Shown one piece after another: positions 23,054 to 32,542 of a stretch of DNA of 48,833 nucleotides. How positions within the stretch are numbered: position 1 is the first letter of the stretch; each line of letters begins with the position of its first letter. This DNA comes from a virus. Position numbers and translations under genes: made by a program. The DNA is taken from the IMG/VR virus record IMGVR_UViG_3300047471_000852, positions 1 to 48,833 of that record; one strand, written 5' to 3'. The notes below the pieces were generated by a model. That model was given only the letters and a program-made list of their open reading frames with translations. It searched no databases and was not told the DNA's origin.

Positions 23054-26000
23054 ATGGAAATAGGGTCGCTGACAGGCGAGATTACCCTCGAAGACAAGGC
23101 GACAGAGGTCATCCTTCAGTTCTCGGACAAGGTCAAGAAGTTCGCCGAGGAGATGGAAGGTGTGTCCGGTGCCATCGCCATCGGCTTCGGCGTCGTCACG
23201 GCCGCCGTCCTCGCGACGTCGGCGAGCATCGTGGCGCTCGGCGAGAAGGGGTCGACGCTGCTCGGCGTTGAGACGGCGTTCGACCACCTAGCCGAAGCGG
23301 CCGGGACGACGGGTGACAACCTGCGCGGCGCGCTGTCCGAAGGGCTGAAGGGCACCGTCGACGACATGGACGCCATGCAGTCCGTGCAACGTCTGCTCGT
23401 ATCAGGGTTCAAGCTCACCGACGAACAGGCCACGACCCTCGCGCAGACGGCGCGCGAGCTTGGGAAGGCGTTCGGCAAGGATGCGGCCGAAGAGTTAGAC
23501 ATCCTGAGCACGTCGCTGGCCACCGGGAGGACGCGGGCGCTGACGATGCAGGGCGTCGTCATCGACGTGAAGAAGGGTGAAGAGGAGTTCGCCAAGTCCA
23601 TCGGAACGACTGTCGATCAGCTGAACGCCGAGGGCCTGCTCGAGGGCAAGCGCATCGCCATCATGGAAGGCGTCAAGGGCAAGCGTGACGCCCTTGGCAT
23701 CTCCGAACTCAGCTTCAAGGAGATGGTGCAGAATACGAACGTCGCCCTCGAAGAGTGGGGCGAGAAGCTGGCCAAGTCCGTCGCGTCATCACCTGACGTG
23801 CTGAGGGCGTACGAGACGATGAGGGACGCGGTCATCAAGACGTTCGGCGGCGACTCTCAGGACCTGATGGCGACGATGACCGGGTGGATCAACGCCTTCG
23901 CCAAGAGCGTCACGGAGCACGGGCCGGCCATCGTCAGTACGCTGGGCAACGTGGTCGACGGTATCAAGGGCATTTACGATTTCCTGTTGGAGCACGAGGA
24001 CGACATCAAGACCCTCGCCGTCGGCGTTGCCGCGTATACCGCTGCATGGGCGGCGCTTGAAATCGGTGGGACGATCGTCACCGGCGTCATTGCCGGCATC
24101 AAGGCGATCACGCTCGCGGCGGAGATACTGGAGGCTGGGTCGTTGGTCGGCCTCATCACGCCAATCGGCCTCGTCGCGGCTGCTGTGGCCGGCCTCGCCA
24201 TCGCCGTCTACAAGTTCAACCAGGAGATGAAGAACATCCAGAAGCCCAGCACCACGGGCGACCTGCTCGCCAGCCTCAAGACGGAGGCGGGCGCGAAGGC
24301 GATGACCATCGACGAGTTCAACGCGAAGCTGGCCGCGAAGCCGCAGCTGGAAGCTGGAAAGACACTCACGATTCCTGGCATCATGGCGCCTGGCGCTGGA
24401 CTTCCAGATAACGCGCAGTATGTCAAGGACCAGGCCGAGAAGATCGAGAAGGCCACGACCGACAGCATCGCAAAGACGGAAGGCCTCTGGGACCAGTACT
24501 TCATCACCATCGACAAGATGAGCGGCGACACGGTGGGCGCGCAGATCGGGGCGATCGACCGCAAGCGAGAGGCTGAGATCGCCTCGCTCGACAAGACGAA
24601 GAAGTACAACCAGGACTATCAGAATCAGCTGCAGGCGATCGAGGCCGTGGCGGCGGTCAACCGTGCTGCCATCTTTGAGGACTTGTATAGGAAGGACGTG
24701 GCAGCTGCGGATCAAGCGGTGAAGGACCGCTTGCAGCTGGCCTATGACGAGGGAATAAAAGAAGCCGACCTACGGAAGTCTGGAAGCGATAAAGTCATCG
24801 ATGCATGGAAGAAGACCCAAGACGATTTGGTAGCGATCAATGCCACGGGGCTGGACAAACAGCTGCTCAACATCAACAAATCGGCCGACGACCAGATCGC
24901 CGTCATCAAGGAGATGACGGACAAGGAACCAGGATATACGCAGGCGGCGGTCGACAACGTGAACGCCATTCGGCAGCAGCAGATTGATGCCCTGTACGTC
25001 GACAACGCCGCGCTCCAGGACAACTCGGCCGAGACGCTCCAGGCCATCGCCGACAAGGCGTACACCACGTACCTGGCGATGGCGGCAGCTGGCGGCGAGT
25101 ACTCCGAGGTGACGATCAAGCACTTCAAGGAGGTCGCCGACGCGGCGCAGCGCACGGCCAGCGGCATCGGGAAGAGCCTCGGGTCGGACCTGTTCGACGC
25201 CCTGAAGGGCGTCCCGCAGACCCTCGCCGATGCCTTCAAGGGCGGCGGCAGCCTGCTCGGCGCCGCTGAGTCACTCGGCTCGCAGTTTGGCGCCATCTTC
25301 GGCAAGCACATCGGCACCGCCATCGGCGGCGCGCTCTCGATCGCTGGTCCCATCGGCGCGGCCATCGGCTCGCTCGTCGGCCCGCTCATCGACATGTTCG
25401 CAAAGCTCGGCGGCCCGTCGAAGGACGAGCTGGCCGCTCGCTCCACCTTCGCCGACTTCCAGAAGCAGTTCGGCACGCTGCCGCAAACGATCGACAAGGT
25501 TGGCGCCGCGTACGCCCGCATGGGCCTCACGGGGACCGACGCGCAGCGCGACCTGCAGCGCGCGCTCGACGCCACGCACGTGAGCGCGGCGGCCGAGGCG
25601 TCGGCCCTCGACACCATCAACCTCGTACTCGAGGCCGACAAGCAGCGGACGGCGGACCTGGCCTCGGCCACGCAGGACGTCATCACGGCCGGGCAGGGGT
25701 TCTCCGGGCCGCTGCCCGACGCCATCAAGGTGACCATCGACCAGATCATGAACGCCTCCGGCGCCACCGACGCGATGAAGGCGGCGCTCCAAGGCGTGCT
25801 CGACAAGGCGAAGCCCGACTACGAGCAGCTCACGAAGCTGGCCGAGACCTACGGCCTCTCGCTCCAGGACCTCGGGCCGAAGTTCGAGCAGGCGAACGTC
25901 GAGGGGCGCGCGAAGAAGATCTTCGACGACTTCACGGCCCTCACGCAGGCGGGCGGCGACGTCGGCGGCGTGCTGAGCCACATGAAGGACCAGATCAGCG

Positions 26001-26575
26001 GCCTGGTCGACGACTCGATGAAGTTCGGCACCGCCATCCCGAAGAACATGAAGCCGCTGATCGACGAGCTGGTCCGGTCCGGGCAGCTGACCGACGAGCA
26101 GGGCAACAAGATCGAGGACACGTCGAAGATCACGTTCGAGGATACGCCGCTCGACAAGAGCTTGACCGGGCTGAACGCCGCCATCGATCACCTGTCGCAG
26201 GTCTTGGGCCTCGTGCCGGGACAGCTCGACAAGATCGGCAGCGCCGCCGACCGACTCCCCGACAATCCATACAAGGACTGGGTCGCACCGCCTCCGCCGG
26301 CGAGCCAGGACGGGCAAGCGTACGCGCAAGGTGGCGTCGTGTACGCGGCCGCTGGCATGACGGTCGGCGGACCGCGCGGCACCGACACGGTCCCTGCGTG
26401 GCTGACGCCAGGTGAACGCGTGACGTCGTTGAACCAACAGCGGCAGGACTCCGAAGCGATGGCGGAGCTGCAGATGGAGGTCGCGGGCCTCCGTCGTGAC
26501 ATGAACTCCAAGTTCCCGCGCGCGATCGGCGCGGCGGTCGGCACGGCGCTGGTCGGCGTGAGGATCGGCTCGTAA
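23054..26575 (+). CDS. Tape measure protein
   Basis: The 1173-residue protein follows the chaperone pair. It has a helical, coiled-coil-prone body, hydrophobic membrane-like segments around residues 315-400 (AAYTAAWAALEIGGTIVTG, VGLITPIGLVAAAVAGLAI) and 735-780, and the C-terminal GTDTVPAWLTPGE motif seen in many tape measures. At about 0.15 nm per residue it predicts a tail of roughly 175 nm. The SD is AAAGGAC and the ATG directly follows the upstream TAG. Its last codon overlaps the tail-tip gene by one base. No lytic transglycosylase or peptidase motif was seen within it. Confidence 0.92.
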   Translation: MEIGSLTGEITLEDKATEVILQFSDKVKKFAEEMEGVSGAIAIGFGVVTAAVLATSASIVALGEKGSTLLGVETAFDHLAEAAGTTGDNLRGALSEGLKGTVDDMDAMQSVQRLLVSGFKLTDEQATTLAQTARELGKAFGKDAAEELDILSTSLATGRTRALTMQGVVIDVKKGEEEFAKSIGTTVDQLNAEGLLEGKRIAIMEGVKGKRDALGISELSFKEMVQNTNVALEEWGEKLAKSVASSPDVLRAYETMRDAVIKTFGGDSQDLMATMTGWINAFAKSVTEHGPAIVSTLGNVVDGIKGIYDFLLEHEDDIKTLAVGVAAYTAAWAALEIGGTIVTGVIAGIKAITLAAEILEAGSLVGLITPIGLVAAAVAGLAIAVYKFNQEMKNIQKPSTTGDLLASLKTEAGAKAMTIDEFNAKLAAKPQLEAGKTLTIPGIMAPGAGLPDNAQYVKDQAEKIEKATTDSIAKTEGLWDQYFITIDKMSGDTVGAQIGAIDRKREAEIASLDKTKKYNQDYQNQLQAIEAVAAVNRAAIFEDLYRKDVAAADQAVKDRLQLAYDEGIKEADLRKSGSDKVIDAWKKTQDDLVAINATGLDKQLLNINKSADDQIAVIKEMTDKEPGYTQAAVDNVNAIRQQQIDALYVDNAALQDNSAETLQAIADKAYTTYLAMAAAGGEYSEVTIKHFKEVADAAQRTASGIGKSLGSDLFDALKGVPQTLADAFKGGGSLLGAAESLGSQFGAIFGKHIGTAIGGALSIAGPIGAAIGSLVGPLIDMFAKLGGPSKDELAARSTFADFQKQFGTLPQTIDKVGAAYARMGLTGTDAQRDLQRALDATHVSAAAEASALDTINLVLEADKQRTADLASATQDVITAGQGFSGPLPDAIKVTIDQIMNASGATDAMKAALQGVLDKAKPDYEQLTKLAETYGLSLQDLGPKFEQANVEGRAKKIFDDFTALTQAGGDVGGVLSHMKDQISGLVDDSMKFGTAIPKNMKPLIDELVRSGQLTDEQGNKIEDTSKITFEDTPLDKSLTGLNAAIDHLSQVLGLVPGQLDKIGSAADRLPDNPYKDWVAPPPPASQDGQAYAQGGVVYAAAGMTVGGPRGTDTVPAWLTPGERVTSLNQQRQDSEAMAELQMEVAGLRRDMNSKFPRAIGAAVGTALVGVRIGS

Positions 26576-29500
26576 TGTTTGCACACGTCTACTTCCCCGG
26601 CGCCTACTTCCCGGGAGTCTACTTCCCGCTGGAAGCCACCTCGTCGACCGCGACGCTGATCCCGAGCACCGCCGAGGCGCTCGTCGGCAACACGATTCAG
26701 GTGACCGCGAGCGGCGGACCTGGACACGTGCTCGACAGGGTGGCGCTCTACCGGGTCGGCACGCCGGACTACATCGACTACGCGGCCATCGTCCTCGGCG
26801 ACACGCCCGTCGCCTACTGGCGGCTCGGGGAGCCGCTCGGATCTGCGACCATCGTGGACGCGAGCGGCCACGGCTACGTCGGCACGGTGAACGGCACGGT
26901 GATCTTCGGGCAGCCGGGCCTGCAGCAGGACAACGACACGGCGGCGGCCTTCAGCGGCATCGACGGCAACGGCGTGACGCTCGATACGCCGACGCCCGTC
27001 TCGGCGCACTTCACCGTCGAGGCCTGGGTAAAGCGCATCGGCGACAGCACGAGCAGCAGCGCGTACGAGTACATCTGGAGTTCCGGCCTCATCGTCAACA
27101 ACGCGGTCGAGGTGGCACTGTTCGACGCCGGGGCCACGACGACCCTGCAGTTCTTCATCAACTTCACGACCCTGACGCCGGGGTGGATCGACACGGGCTA
27201 CGTCGTCACCGACGGCGAGTGGTTCCACGTCGCAGTCACGTGGGACGGCGTCCGGGTCATCGTCTACGTCAACGGGAACGCCGTCTACTCGTCGGCGGCC
27301 TTCACCGGACTGACGCTCTACAGCGTCGGCTCGACCTCCGGTACGCGCGGCATCGGCTCGACGGAGGGCCTCGCCGGGCCGATCTGGGGCATCCTCGACG
27401 AGGTGGCGCTGTACGACTACGCGCTGTCGAGCGGACAGATCAACGAGCACCTCGGCGCCGTCGTGCCGCAGATGGTGTCGTGGCAGTACATGAACGGGAC
27501 GCAAACGCCACCCGCCATCGGCCTCACCGACGCGACGCTGTCGTTCGTCATGGCGTACGGCGGCTTCTTCGAGTTCCGGTGGCTGTTCGCGGGCGGCTGG
27601 TCCCGCATCGCGACCAGCATCACGGTCTCGGTCCACTGGACGAGCGGCGTCGTGGAGATGGAGTTCAACGGGCGCGGCGGTGGCTGGACGCCAGTGACCG
27701 ACTGGATGCGGAACCCTGGCATCACGTGGCACCGGGGGCTGCCAGGCACCAACATCACCGACCTCGTGGCCGACATCGGGACGCTCCACCTGACGCTCGA
27801 CAACAGCGACCGGAACAGCGCTGGGCTGATGGGCTACTACAGCCCGGACAACGTCAACTGTCGCAAGGGCTTTGACCTCTACATTGGCCTGCGGTACACC
27901 GTTGCCGGCAGTCGGCGATTCACGGGCACCATCTCGGCGATCGACGTCGTGCCGGGGACGAAGGGCTCGCGCAGGGTTGCGGTCGAGGCCGAGAGCTGGA
28001 TGGGCACGGCCTCGCGTACGCGCCTCTCGGGCCTCATCGGCGTCCTCGTGAACAACCGCGGCGACCAGGTGTTTCAGGCGATCATCGACTCGCTGACGCC
28101 CTCGACGAAGCCGCTGGCGGTCGAGAAGGACGTCAGCTCGGACATCTTCCCCTACACGCTCGACCGCGTACGCGACGAACAGACGCTGCTGCGGGACGAG
28201 ATCTACAGACTGTGCCTGAGCGGCCTGGACAAGTGCTGGGAGCGCGGCGACGGGACCGTCGTCTATGAGAGTCGATCGCGTCGGGTGACGACGTCGAGCA
28301 GCGCGGACAACTTTCCCGACAACCATGGCTTCACGCCGACGCGCGACCGCAACGGGATCGTCAATCAGGTGCAGTCCACCGTCCACCCGAGGCTCCCCTC
28401 GGCGGTCAGCGTCGTGATGTACTCTCTGAACCAGCCGTTGTCGCTGGTGCCGGGGACGCCGATCACGGTGCTCGGCGGCTGGAACGACCCAGCCAACCCG
28501 AACGTGCGCCTCGGCGCCGTCAATCTTGACGCGCTGGTGGCGACGACCGACTACACGGCGAACTCGCTGGCCGACGGGTCGGGTACCGATCTCACGAGCC
28601 TCCTCGTCGTCACGACTGGGCTGTCCGGCAACGCGACCACGTTCACGATTACGTTGGGCGGCGCGACGCCAGGGTTCCTGACCAAGCTGCAGCAGCGCGG
28701 CAAGCCGCTCTATGACTACGGGCCGGTCGTCATGACCTACGACAACCCGGCGAGCATCGACAAGAGTGGCATGGCGTTCATGTCCCTGGACATGGCCTAC
28801 CAAGCGGACCCGCGGTTCGGGCTGGAGGCAGCGCAGTACGTTATCTTCACCCTGTCAGGGCTGCAGACGAAGGTCTCGGGCTTTCGCCGCACCTATGGAT
28901 TCTTGAACGTCGCCGAGATGGCCCGCACGGTGGCACGCGAGGTAAGCGACCGCATCACGATCACCGACGAGCTGACTGGCCTCAGCAAGATCTTCTTCAT
29001 CAACGCCATCGACGAGATGGAGGTCGAAGGGCTGCTGACGACGGAGTGGCTGCTGACGCCCGCCGACAACACAGCGTTCTGGCTGCTGGAGGTCGTCGGT
29101 CGCAGCGAGCTGGACGCGACCACGCGGCTCGGCTTCGGGTTGATCGTCGGGCACACGGACGTCTTGCACGGCGACATCCATACGGACGTGGCGCACGCGG
29201 ACTCTGTCCATCAAGACTCGCATACCGATGCGCACGCGGACGTCTCGCACGGTGACGACACGGGCCATACAGACATTCCGCATACCGACACGCCGCACAC
29301 GGACACGCACAGCGACGTGGCGCACGGGGACAGCCACTCGGACGTGGCGCACGTGGACTCGACGCAGACGGCGGGGTACGGCGACTATCACGAGGACGAG
29401 GCGGCGACGGGGTTCCACTCCGACTACTGGACCGCGTCTCCAGTGACCCACGGCGATGGCGATGGCTCGAGCCACCAGGACATCCATCAGGACGTGACGG

Positions 29501-29733
29501 TGCCGTTCTCGCACAACGACGTGGCCCACTCGGACGTGGCCCACTCGGACTCGCCGCACACCGATTCGCGGGTCATCGTCAACCACGTTGATTCGGCGCA
29601 CGGCGACGCCACGGGGCACACCGATACAGGTCACATCGACACGCACGGCGACGTTAACCACGCGGACGTCCTGCATCAGGACGCACCGCACGACGATACG
29701 CACACGGACGCGGCGCACGGAGACATCAATTGA
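26575..29733 (+). CDS. Tail-tip/hub protein with LamG domain and C-terminal His-x-Asp repeats
   Basis: The 1052-residue protein follows the tape measure, where distal tail/hub proteins lie. Residues 1-20 hold three YFPG-type repeats (VYFPGAYFPGVYFP). Residues 78-292 form a LamG/concanavalin-type domain (YWRLGEPLG, FTVEAWVKR, EWFHVAVTWDGVRVIVYVNG, WGILDEVALYDYALS), probably a carbohydrate-binding module. Residues 380-850 form the hub-like part (HLTLDNSDRNS, RFTGTISAIDV, FRRTYGFLNVAEMARTVA). Residues 860-1052 carry 34 His-x-Asp motifs with mostly 5-residue spacing (GHTDV, LHGDI, THSDV). The stop overlaps the TTG of a radical SAM gene. The repeat tail could bind metal, be enzymatically modified, or both. 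Confidence 0.8.
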   Translation: MFAHVYFPGAYFPGVYFPLEATSSTATLIPSTAEALVGNTIQVTASGGPGHVLDRVALYRVGTPDYIDYAAIVLGDTPVAYWRLGEPLGSATIVDASGHGYVGTVNGTVIFGQPGLQQDNDTAAAFSGIDGNGVTLDTPTPVSAHFTVEAWVKRIGDSTSSSAYEYIWSSGLIVNNAVEVALFDAGATTTLQFFINFTTLTPGWIDTGYVVTDGEWFHVAVTWDGVRVIVYVNGNAVYSSAAFTGLTLYSVGSTSGTRGIGSTEGLAGPIWGILDEVALYDYALSSGQINEHLGAVVPQMVSWQYMNGTQTPPAIGLTDATLSFVMAYGGFFEFRWLFAGGWSRIATSITVSVHWTSGVVEMEFNGRGGGWTPVTDWMRNPGITWHRGLPGTNITDLVADIGTLHLTLDNSDRNSAGLMGYYSPDNVNCRKGFDLYIGLRYTVAGSRRFTGTISAIDVVPGTKGSRRVAVEAESWMGTASRTRLSGLIGVLVNNRGDQVFQAIIDSLTPSTKPLAVEKDVSSDIFPYTLDRVRDEQTLLRDEIYRLCLSGLDKCWERGDGTVVYESRSRRVTTSSSADNFPDNHGFTPTRDRNGIVNQVQSTVHPRLPSAVSVVMYSLNQPLSLVPGTPITVLGGWNDPANPNVRLGAVNLDALVATTDYTANSLADGSGTDLTSLLVVTTGLSGNATTFTITLGGATPGFLTKLQQRGKPLYDYGPVVMTYDNPASIDKSGMAFMSLDMAYQADPRFGLEAAQYVIFTLSGLQTKVSGFRRTYGFLNVAEMARTVAREVSDRITITDELTGLSKIFFINAIDEMEVEGLLTTEWLLTPADNTAFWLLEVVGRSELDATTRLGFGLIVGHTDVLHGDIHTDVAHADSVHQDSHTDAHADVSHGDDTGHTDIPHTDTPHTDTHSDVAHGDSHSDVAHVDSTQTAGYGDYHEDEAATGFHSDYWTASPVTHGDGDGSSHQDIHQDVTVPFSHNDVAHSDVAHSDSPHTDSRVIVNHVDSAHGDATGHTDTGHIDTHGDVNHADVLHQDAPHDDTHTDAAHGDIN
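29152..29730 (+). repeat. Coding His-x-Asp repeat array (34 motifs)
   Basis: The last 193 codons of the tail-tip gene encode H-x-D about every five residues, with x mostly T, G, S, A or Q and an interruption near 29370-29510 (TQTAGYGDYHEDEAATG, DYWTASPVTHGDGDG). Codons for the same residues vary, so selection appears to act on the peptide. Confidence 0.9.
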
Positions 29734-31040
29734 CGATCGAGCTGACGCCTGTCGGCGTCGCGTGCAACTTGTCATGCACATACTGCTACCAGAACCCCAT
29801 GCGCGACGCGGGGAACGTCACCGTGCCGCACGACTTCGAGAAGATGAAGGCGGGGCTGGAGCGCGAGGGCGGGTCGTTCTCGGTGTTCGGCGGCGAGGCG
29901 CTGCTTACGCCGCTGCCGCTGCTGGAAGAGATCTTCGCCTACGGCCTCCAGCGCTTCGGGTCCAACGGCATCCAGACGAACGGCGCCCTCATCACCGACG
30001 TGCACGTCGAGTTGTTCAAGCGGTACAAGGTGAACGTCGGCCTGTCGCTCGACGGGCCGGGCGAGCTGAACGACAGCCGGTGGGCGGGCTCGCTGAAGAA
30101 GACGCGCGAGGCGACGGCGCAGAGCTTCAGCGGCCTCTTTCGCCTGCTGGACGCGGGCATCGTGCCCAGCGTCATCGTGACGCTGTACCGAGGGAACGCG
30201 GTCGGCGACAAGCTGACGCAGCTGCTCGAGTGGTTCCGACTGCTCGAGGTGTACGGCGTCTACGCCGTGAGGCTGCACCTGCTGGAGGTCGAGACCGACG
30301 AGGTCCAGCAGGCGATGGCGCTGACCATCGAGGAGAACACCGCCGCGCTGCTGCGGCTCTACGAGTTCCAGGCCACGACGAAGGTCCGCTTCGACCTCTT
30401 CGGCGAGATGGCCAAGCTGCTCCTCGGCAACGACGTCGGCGCGACGTGCGTGTGGGGCGCGTGCGACCCGTACACGACGGCCGCCGTGCGCGGCGTGGAC
30501 GCGGAAGGCGAGTCGTCCAACTGCGGGCGGACGAACAAAGAGGGCATCAGTTGGCAGAAGGCCCAGACGCCGGGCTACGAGCGTCAGGTGGCGCTCTACC
30601 ATACGCCGCAGGCGGACTTCGGGTGTGAGGACTGTCGGTTCTTCTTCGCCTGCAAGGGCCAGTGCCCGGGCACGGCCGAAGGCGGCGACTGGCGGAACCG
30701 CAGCGAGCACTGCGGCGCGTGGATGACGCTGTTCGACCGCATCGAGGCGGACTTGATCAGCATCGGGCACGTGCCGCTGTCGCGGAACGACGCGCTGCGG
30801 ACGCAGGTCGACGCCCTGATGCTGAAGTACTGGGCGCGCGGCGAGAACCTCTCCATCACGCAGGCCGTCGCCGCCGTGCAGGCGGGCGTCGAGCCGACGA
30901 TCGTCCCTCCGGCGCGCGGCCACGGCGACCACTGGGACGCGCCCGACGGCTACCGGCACGCGGACGGAGACTTTACCATTCACGGCGACCGCGGAACCAC
31001 CGACATGCACGGGGACTCAGATGCCAAAAACCCTCGCTGA
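29730..31040 (+). CDS. Radical SAM/SPASM enzyme, peptide-maturase-like
   Basis: The 436-residue enzyme starts at TTG (TTGA overlap with the tail-tip stop, SD GGAG 7 bases upstream). ACNLSCTYC supplies the CxxxCxxC radical SAM cluster (C12, C16, C19). SVFGGEALLT holds the GGE motif (54-56) that helps bind SAM. Residues 240-330 have a SPASM-type Cys pattern (CVWGAC, SNCGRT, FGCEDCRFFFACKGQCPG, EHCGAW) for auxiliary Fe-S clusters, as in peptide-modifying enzymes such as anaerobic sulfatase maturases and RiPP maturases. The last 45 residues contain five His-x-Asp motifs (HGDHWD, RHADGD, IHGD, MHGD), echoing the tail protein. The likely substrate is the upstream His-x-Asp tail; the reaction is unknown. 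Confidence 0.88.
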   Translation: MTIELTPVGVACNLSCTYCYQNPMRDAGNVTVPHDFEKMKAGLEREGGSFSVFGGEALLTPLPLLEEIFAYGLQRFGSNGIQTNGALITDVHVELFKRYKVNVGLSLDGPGELNDSRWAGSLKKTREATAQSFSGLFRLLDAGIVPSVIVTLYRGNAVGDKLTQLLEWFRLLEVYGVYAVRLHLLEVETDEVQQAMALTIEENTAALLRLYEFQATTKVRFDLFGEMAKLLLGNDVGATCVWGACDPYTTAAVRGVDAEGESSNCGRTNKEGISWQKAQTPGYERQVALYHTPQADFGCEDCRFFFACKGQCPGTAEGGDWRNRSEHCGAWMTLFDRIEADLISIGHVPLSRNDALRTQVDALMLKYWARGENLSITQAVAAVQAGVEPTIVPPARGHGDHWDAPDGYRHADGDFTIHGDRGTTDMHGDSDAKNPR

Positions 31041-31386
31041 CCGCCTCGTCGTCGTTCAGCAGCAGTACGCCGACCAGATCGAGATCCAAGGCTACAGCGT
31101 CGACGCGCAGACGCGGCAGATCACGCTGACGATCGTCCCGAGCCGGTTGAACGACGACGGCGTGACGCGAACCGTGCTGCCGTCGCACGCGGTGACGTTC
31201 GACGACCCGCTCGTCACGCAGACGATGGGCCTGATCGTCTCGCAGATCGTGCTGACGGTGCTGAATCAGATCGGCGCGCCCCAGCAGGTGATCGACCGGG
31301 CGACGACGGCGATGAACAACAACCTGACGGCGACGGCGGACGTTTACTACCAAGCGACGAGGGACCAACTGTATGCCAGACTCTAG
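31021..31386 (+). CDS. Hypothetical protein in the radical SAM operon
   Basis: The 121 residues start at an ATG with SD GGGGA inside the end of the radical SAM gene (20-base overlap), so they are produced from the same transcript. A beta-rich N-half (YADQIEIQGYSVDAQTRQIT, LTIVPSRLND) is followed by helices (LIVSQIVLTVLNQIGAPQQV). It could be a structural protein, or a recognition/leader-binding partner for the modifying enzyme, but it shows no clear winged-helix RRE signature. No family is recognised. Confidence 0.6.
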   Translation: MPKTLADRLVVVQQQYADQIEIQGYSVDAQTRQITLTIVPSRLNDDGVTRTVLPSHAVTFDDPLVTQTMGLIVSQIVLTVLNQIGAPQQVIDRATTAMNNNLTATADVYYQATRDQLYARL

Positions 31387-32542
31387 GCCGGACTGGACGC
31401 GCATCATCTGGGCGAGCCGCGTGGCGCGCGAGGCGTGGGAGCCGCGCGTTCAGGCGATTCAACGGGCGTGGGTGCGCGTCGAAGTGGCATCGGTTGAGCG
31501 GCTGGTCCGAGCGGCGGCCCTCGTGTACGGGAAGCCGGAGACGAACCTGTCGATGCGCGAGGTCGCGCCAACCCGATGGGCCGTTGCCCGCAGCCTGGAC
31601 CTTGACGTCTTCTGTCATGCCTATGAGACAGGTGACGACAATACGGTTGGGCGTCTACTTGGCTATCCTGAGTGCTGCCGCGCGTTCTTCTCGCGCACGT
31701 GGGGCGGCGCGAACGTCGACACGACGTGGGAGATGCTCGCACCGGGCCTGCGCGCGGACGGACCCGTGGAGTCGAACATCCTCGGGCGGTGGCTGGGCGT
31801 CCGCCTCGTGCCGCACCTGCCGTGCAGCTTCAACTGCACGGCGACGGTCGCGTTCGCCGAACGGCTGGCGCCGTCGTGGCCTGCCCAAGAGCTCGCCTGG
31901 GCGAAAGAGATCCTCAACTGGCCCTGCGAGTGGAACGCTCGGCACGGCATCGCCGAGGTCCGGTTCCCGGTGCTCAAGCTCTCAACCCGGACGACCGTCT
32001 ACCCAGAGAAGAGGACCATCCAGCGCCACGGGCCTGGCTGGCCGGCTGAGGCAGCCCGAGGGCTTCAGTTCCCTTACCAGAAGCCAGTAAGCCCTTTGCC
32101 TCTGGTCCGGCCCGTCCTCCAGGCTGCCATCAGGCCAGAGGACAACGGCTTCTTGACGCGGAGCGGCATGGACAGCGCGCACGAGATGATCCTGGCCGCG
32201 CTCCACGACGCGCCGCCCCGCGGCACCGTCCTGGACCTTGGCGCTGGCGACGGCCGCCTCATGCGCCGCATCGCCGCCACGTTCGCGGTCCCGGTGCAAG
32301 GCGTGGAGTCGGTGCCGCTCAAGGCGTCGAAGGACCCGCTCGTCATCTGCGACGACCTGCGCCACATGATGACCGTCGAGGGCCGGCAGCACGTCGACAC
32401 GATCGTCGTCTCGGTACGGCGCTACGAAGAGGTCCCAGGACTGGAGGCGTGGTGCCGCGCGCACGCGCGACAGGTGCTGACCTACTCCTACGATTACCCG
32501 ATGTTTACGAGCATGGAGGCGGCGTGCCTTACGTCAAGATAG
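31373..32542 (+). CDS. Fusion: Cys-motif domain (DUF483-like) plus SAM methyltransferase
   Basis: The 389 residues have two parts. The N-terminal part carries RLLGYPECCRAFF (about residues 92-104), VESNILGRWLGVRLVPHLP and PCSFNC, a double-Cys signature that recalls the DUF483 family (recollection, unverified). The C-terminal part (about residues 285-380) has GTVLDLGAGDGRLMRRIAA, a class I SAM-binding motif I, followed by VQGVESVPLKASKD and VDTIVVSVRRYEEVPG. The gene overlaps its neighbours by 14 and 19 bases. It may add a second modification, such as methylation, to the same tail protein as the radical SAM enzyme. That is inference from position. Confidence 0.65.
   Translation: MPDSRPDWTRIIWASRVAREAWEPRVQAIQRAWVRVEVASVERLVRAAALVYGKPETNLSMREVAPTRWAVARSLDLDVFCHAYETGDDNTVGRLLGYPECCRAFFSRTWGGANVDTTWEMLAPGLRADGPVESNILGRWLGVRLVPHLPCSFNCTATVAFAERLAPSWPAQELAWAKEILNWPCEWNARHGIAEVRFPVLKLSTRTTVYPEKRTIQRHGPGWPAEAARGLQFPYQKPVSPLPLVRPVLQAAIRPEDNGFLTRSGMDSAHEMILAALHDAPPRGTVLDLGAGDGRLMRRIAATFAVPVQGVESVPLKASKDPLVICDDLRHMMTVEGRQHVDTIVVSVRRYEEVPGLEAWCRAHARQVLTYSYDYPMFTSMEAACLTSR

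Follow-up and report, generated by a model that had tools for sequence, protein, structure and literature searches.

Results

The window, by which we mean the whole stretch of viral DNA analyzed here (48,833 nucleotides; IMG/VR record IMGVR_UViG_3300047471_000852), harbors on its plus strand a likely tail tape measure gene (23054-26575), assigned by context and by a weak match to PHROG tape measure proteins (E 7.9e-5). Directly downstream, a gene at 26575-29733 (plus strand) encodes a 1052-residue phage tail or virion protein with a laminin-G-like domain (Pfam Laminin_G_3, E 1.3e-18; PHROG virion structural protein, E 1.8e-8). The C-terminus of this protein, a putative substrate, comprises an array of 34 H-x-D motifs within about 191-200 residues, together with aromatic variants such as YGD (29152-29724, plus strand). 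The adjoining gene (29730-31040, plus strand) encodes a 436-residue radical SAM/SPASM enzyme (Pfam Radical_SAM, E 1.5e-11); its TTG start codon shares bases with the stop of the H-x-D protein gene (TTGA). The next gene but one (31373-32542, plus strand) specifies the putative partner, a DUF483 domain with conserved cysteines (Cys 101, 102, 151 and 155) fused to a class I methyltransferase domain; a fold search with the model of this protein returned, for the C-terminal part, only class I methyltransferases among the matches listed. Between these two genes lies a small ORF of 121 residues (31021-31386, plus strand), starting within the codons of the enzyme tail, for which family searches gave no convincing match. 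The terminal HGD codons of the tail (CAC GGG GAC; 31001-31024) resemble a Shine-Dalgarno site for the ATG at 31021, as do those of the array (CAC GGA GAC; 29716-29735) for the TTG at 29730; such a role would at most constrain the terminal motif.

The enzyme displays both hallmarks of a SPASM maturase, comprising a CxxxCxxC motif (C12, C16 and C19; 29763-29786, plus strand) for the radical SAM [4Fe-4S] cluster and a SPASM region (30447-30713, plus strand) with the pattern C299-x2-C302-x5-C308-x3-C312 and C328, along with C240, C245 and C265. In the alignment of 66-69 members, the CxxxCxxC motif and all eight SPASM cysteines are invariant, the latter being compatible with two auxiliary Fe-S clusters. 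A fold search with the predicted model matched anSMEcpe (Z 30) and the peptide enzyme ChlB (Z 29). Among NCBIfam families, the better named matches included the peptide maturases DynA, AmcB, GrrM and YhhB. The top match, DynA (E 3e-19), scored 69.2 bits vs. an equivalog cut-off of 450, and the known cyclophane families likewise stayed far below their cut-offs (AmcB 64 vs. 425 bits, GrrM/OscB 48 vs. 310, YhhB 47 vs. 445). HxsB and HxsC were not among the best 25 of the 49 NCBIfam matches, and the motif here is H-x-D, not H-x-S.

The C-terminal sequence of the enzyme, as translated from 29730-31040, is VPPARGHGDHWDAPDGYRHADGDFTIHGDRGTTDMHGDSDAKNPR. As the original prediction had it, the last 45 residues contain five H-x-D motifs. 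The other 391 contain none. These motifs (HGD, HWD, HAD, HGD and HGD) start at residues 398, 401, 410, 418 and 427 (30921-30929, 30930-30938, 30957-30965, 30981-30989 and 31008-31016) within a tail that spans residues 396-436 (30915-31037, plus strand). Chance composition was ruled out as their source by shuffling: shuffled tail residues yielded a mean of 0.99 motifs, with at least five in 5 of 20,000 shuffles (0.025%), and whole-protein shuffles gave five motifs within a single 45-residue segment in 0 of 5,000 trials. In the AlphaFold2 prediction (66 homologues), residues 1-394 are well folded, the final ordered helix spans 376-385 and pLDDT is ~30 for residues 395-436; the motif segment is thus predicted to be a disordered extension past the enzyme fold. 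Across the nine members of the window's clade, none of the five tail motifs has lost its H or D, with x free to vary. The tail and residues 1-340 both give a pN/pS of 0.37, and the intervening helical segment gives 0.67, ratios that are only rough because silent sites are near saturation. By this rough measure, the tail in the window's clade appears to be under purifying selection equal to that on the catalytic core.

Besides the Thermus phages phiMa, phiLo and Cumys, some 54 viral contigs and about 53 bacterial genomes from many phyla encode homologues of the enzyme. The enzymes of all three Thermus phages have an H-x-D tail; phiMa and Cumys encode, directly upstream of the enzyme, a protein of 343-344 residues that contains 53-54 H-x-D motifs, and phiLo encodes two nearby proteins with 101 and 72. 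The same three-gene set, with an enzyme of 32% identity, occurs in a haloarchaeal provirus on a Halomicrococcus plasmid (L377, 3338-5554). This provirus, which also has a baseplate gene, carries an H-x-D/Y-x-D array protein, the enzyme and a DUF483-like gene, and the C-terminus of that enzyme has a Cys-rich CGCGSGCGCG stretch in place of a dense H-x-D tail.

In a tree of 124 enzyme cores (72 viral and 52 cellular members), at least one H-x-D follows the SPASM domain in 57 of the 72 viral members, 55 of which have at least two among their final 70 residues. Viral members without a tail comprise L040 and a single 14-row clade (L014-L030, with the gene order array-DUF483-enzyme). Six of the 52 cellular members have a tail and 46 have none; in one of the six (L108), the single motif lies within the helical part and may be due to chance. 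The tail is present in deep branches of the enzyme family and in 21 of 21 enzymes found solely via H-x-D repeat proteins, typically as HGDxHGDHTD. A general SPASM feature can be ruled out, as no H-x-D tail was found in 18 distant SPASM controls. The original prediction also proposed checking whether the tail tracks with H-x-D proteins. Such tracking was borne out for the closest homologues with an H-x-D neighbor (L006, L007, L008, L009, L010, L011, L019 and L058), where absence of the tail from all would have spoken against a link and where every one keeps it. It did not extend to the family at large, since the 14-member phage clade, L040 and 46 of the 52 cellular relatives lack the tail, and most of these tail-less phage and cellular enzymes nevertheless adjoin H-x-D arrays. 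Accordingly, catalysis seems not to need the tail, which has been dispensable over evolution. Dense arrays occur at 52 of 62 tailed vs. 6 of 44 tail-less loci, an association that is suggestive only, as the 2 to 6 independent changes behind it are too few for a statistical test.

The tail has a consensus of its own. The x residue is Gly in 61% of tail motifs vs. 18% of array motifs, the tail being higher in 49 of 53 phages; HGDH[T/W/Y]D recurs in 40 of 57 tails, and motifs are often three residues apart (HGDHTD). With this consensus and the protein sequence held while silent sites have become saturated, the tail qualifies as a distinct, selected element.

Linkage between enzyme and array was evident from both directions. 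When the search started from the enzyme, 84 of 103 family loci proved to encode array proteins; among the 36 tailed viral loci, 26 have an array ORF whose end lies 0 or 3 nt from the start of the enzyme. For the reverse test, viral contigs were scanned, blind to the enzyme, with two DNA patterns that capture spaced H-x-D repeats. This yielded 234 loci, among which reading frame and motif diversity served to discount off-frame simple repeats. In 53 of the 234, an ORF with a diverse H-x-D array was present, with the enzyme core in 42 of these 53 vs. 1 of the 181 others (Fisher p ~7e-35, with several loci on one contig and with off-frame repeats among the 181, which thus represent background rather than matched controls). 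As for the 11 array loci without the enzyme, three appear to be off-frame simple repeats, one sits on a contig with an already known enzyme (L341/L046), two are on contigs that hold the enzyme elsewhere, and the others are either arrays located where a stretch ends or contig fragments.

Substitutions within the motif, counted over 103 array segments, define its rule. Where His is missing (n=308), its place is taken by Tyr (123), Phe (53) or Trp (10) vs. Arg in only 3, and where Asp is missing (n=198), Asn appears in 104 vs. Gly in 4. Mutational nearness as the cause of the Tyr and Asn variants is ruled out, given that Arg and Gly are equally near by mutation and rare. Aromatic residues account for 42% at offset -2 in arrays vs. 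5-7% at other offsets. With Tyr, Phe or Trp for His and Asn for Asp, the array rule is aromatic-x-Asp/Asn. One locus (L051, 8759-9961 and 14834-16129) has HSD/HTD alternating with FSN and FGS (AFSNSHSDAHTD), a mixed aromatic-x-Asn/Ser/Asp array.

The scaffolds bearing arrays are unrelated, ranging over phage tail proteins, Tat-type secreted proteins and tectonin-type and other large proteins, so that the motif itself is the common element. In four loci (L269, L296, L318 and L324), a collagen-like (GPPGPPG) fibre bears an H-x-D block, and on the contig of the last the enzyme is ~50 kb distant (G001:90164-91429). Array proteins of Acidimicrobiia, Chloroflexi and a planctomycete (L066, L069, L072 and L113) carry SRRALLRAGAAIPV or a similar Tat-like signal, which suggests that the protein may be exported folded and modified. 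Large bacterial proteins of 900-2700 residues (L074, L090, L091, L097, L100 and L075) end in H-x-D arrays and adjoin the enzyme; the last has tectonin/tachylectin domains, and the other five gave no Pfam match.

DUF483 adjoins the enzyme or is fused to it in almost all loci whose flanks are long enough. C-terminal DUF483 fusions were seen in cellular enzymes (L073, L076, L078-L081, L083, L091, L092, L097, L102-L104, L106, L110 and L117), many of them with H-x-D proteins upstream. The DUF483 proteins themselves have no H-x-D cluster, be it in tailed or tail-less loci.

Discussion

Reasoning from known maturases, we surmise with moderate confidence that the locus is a protein-modification cassette in which the enzyme cross-links the motifs of the array, with its own tail being a docking segment or a self-modified copy. 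The SPASM radical SAM enzyme would act on tens of aromatic-x-Asp/Asn motifs (mostly His-x-Asp) at the C-terminus of the upstream tail protein, and the DUF483 or DUF483-methyltransferase protein would be a second, near-constant component. Most likely, residue i (the imidazole of His, sometimes Tyr, Phe or Trp) would be cross-linked to the beta-carbon of residue i+2 (Asp or Asn); from what is known of the enzyme family, we infer that an H atom would be abstracted at the Asp C-beta and a bond formed to the imidazole, repeatedly along the array. The tail (HGD, HGDH[T/W]D), in which the motif recurs in conserved and flexible form, would most likely act in cis by entering the active site or the surface that binds the substrate, and in docking or becoming self-modified it would hold the enzyme on dense arrays. 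That every tail H and D is kept is most simply explained if the tail is a copy of the substrate that docks or becomes self-modified, and the flexible tether, together with its occurrence with dense arrays, fits a role in staying on the array. Docking, self-modification and pseudo-substrate control by the tail would all be compatible with the present sequences. A more specific proposal, which we advance tentatively, is that the dozens of His-x-Asp motifs of a virion tail fibre become a rigid cyclophane chain, the enzyme modifying its own tail and thereby being tethered to, or primed by, its product. If this is true, it would represent a post-translational stapling system for large proteins that is common to phages, bacteria and archaeal viruses.

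Among the alternatives, an unlikely one is that arrays and tail are metal-binding (HxH-like) segments, with the enzyme acting elsewhere and the tail gathering ions, e.g. iron for the clusters. Flexible H/D-rich sequence would suit this role, and His-rich phage fibre tips bind iron; however, Phe and Trp for His and Asn for Asp, residues unsuited to metal ligation, far exceed equally near mutations, and the tight linkage to an enzyme of the SPASM peptide-modifying type would be left unexplained. The aromatic-x-Asp/Asn rule therefore speaks against a purely metal-binding role. We put slightly less weight still on the tail as a docking tag for the DUF483 partner instead of the array, even though DUF483 lies beside or is fused to nearly every enzyme and the fused forms, devoid of a tail, end in DUF483 at the place of the tail. 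In some 30 cellular relatives and the phage clade, DUF483 is encoded by a gene of its own and the enzyme has no tail, which also opposes the tail as a stand-in for DUF483, and a tag of this kind gives no account of why the tail copies the array motif.

It appears very improbable that the tail is a functionless relic of recombination or of repeat drift from the neighboring array. Array and tail do lie in adjacent, overlapping genes, and some tails are repetitive themselves (L167 and L070), but selection at the level of the core, a separate consensus, presence in deep branches and a longest common DNA word of 11 bases between the tail and the window's own array all argue against it. With its predicted disorder and a usage of x unlike that of arrays, the tail is not a recently captured piece of array, and the capture by recombination entertained in the original prediction can be set aside on the strength of the Gly preference, the saturated silent sites and the short common word. 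Least probable of all is modification of DNA by the radical SAM-DUF483 module, as suggested for Cumys and phiMa in a 2024 paper on the grounds that related genes lie close to genes for deazapurine DNA modification in some cyanobacteria (PMC11437467), given that the neighboring gene in both phages encodes 53-54 H-x-D motifs, that array linkage spans phages, bacteria and an archaeal provirus, and that an array protein is likewise encoded at the Scytonematopsis locus, the only one inspected from cyanobacteria.

Cross-linking of arrays by the enzyme would extend radical SAM cyclophane chemistry, known from small peptide natural products, to long arrays as the likely substrates, with phage tail proteins and large cellular proteins across many phyla as candidates. 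If true, this would constitute a new class of structural-protein maturation, assign a function to DUF483-linked modules, revise the DNA-modification role proposed for the Thermus phage module and offer a repeat-based, genetically simple tool for protein stapling; the tail would also provide a handle on how an enzyme of this kind keeps to a repetitive substrate that lacks a leader peptide.

A search of the literature outside subscription journals found no description of an H-x-D radical SAM/SPASM system, an HxD maturase or a phage-fibre version thereof. Several described systems share some features of the locus. With the sulfatase-maturating enzyme anSMEcpe and ChlB, the enzyme has in common the radical SAM and SPASM fold, but identity is 19-20%, the substrates are other ones and the H-x-D tail lies outside the common fold. 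TvgB/TvgA (poly-cyclopropylglycine) and HxsA-HxsB resemble it in having a radical SAM enzyme beside a repeat-motif precursor, but differ in their motifs (TVGG and His-Xaa-Ser) and in their enzymes, and the accessible part of their description reports no comparable enzyme tail (PMC9062424). Enzymes of three-residue cyclophanes join residue i to i+2 in Trp-Asn/Asp, Tyr-Asp, Phe-Asn and His pairs, and in dynobactin (DynA/DynE) an imidazole N is linked to a C-beta, with His and Tyr two residues apart (PMC11002830). The dynobactin maturase, unlike the enzyme proposed here, acts on one short peptide. With the triceptide enzymes (XncB, OscB/GrrM, YxdB, HaaB and YhhB), the enzyme shares SPASM radical SAM architecture and, in its candidate substrate, aromatic-x-Asn/Asp motifs with an i to i+2 spacing (PMC11002830), the array motif agreeing with their substrate rule of aromatic-x-(Asp/Asn and similar). 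In contrast to their short leader-core peptide, the candidate substrate here is a 1052-residue structural protein with 34 motifs at its end, and the window system adds a substrate-like enzyme tail and a DUF483 partner, with scores far under the cut-offs. We therefore regard the enzyme as triceptide-maturase-like in its presumed working, yet do not file it as a member, as the family cut-offs and the short precursor set it apart.

The Thermus phage module (Cumys and phiMa) has a homologous enzyme (50-51% identity) with a DUF483 neighbor in the phage tail region, as in the window, along with an upstream H-x-D protein and an enzyme tail (HGDYTDHGDAPHGDHWDG); H-x-D arrays and the enzyme tail go without mention in the accessible part of its description (PMC11437467). 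Unlike that module, the window has its DUF483 fused to a methyltransferase and bears the array on a much larger tail protein.
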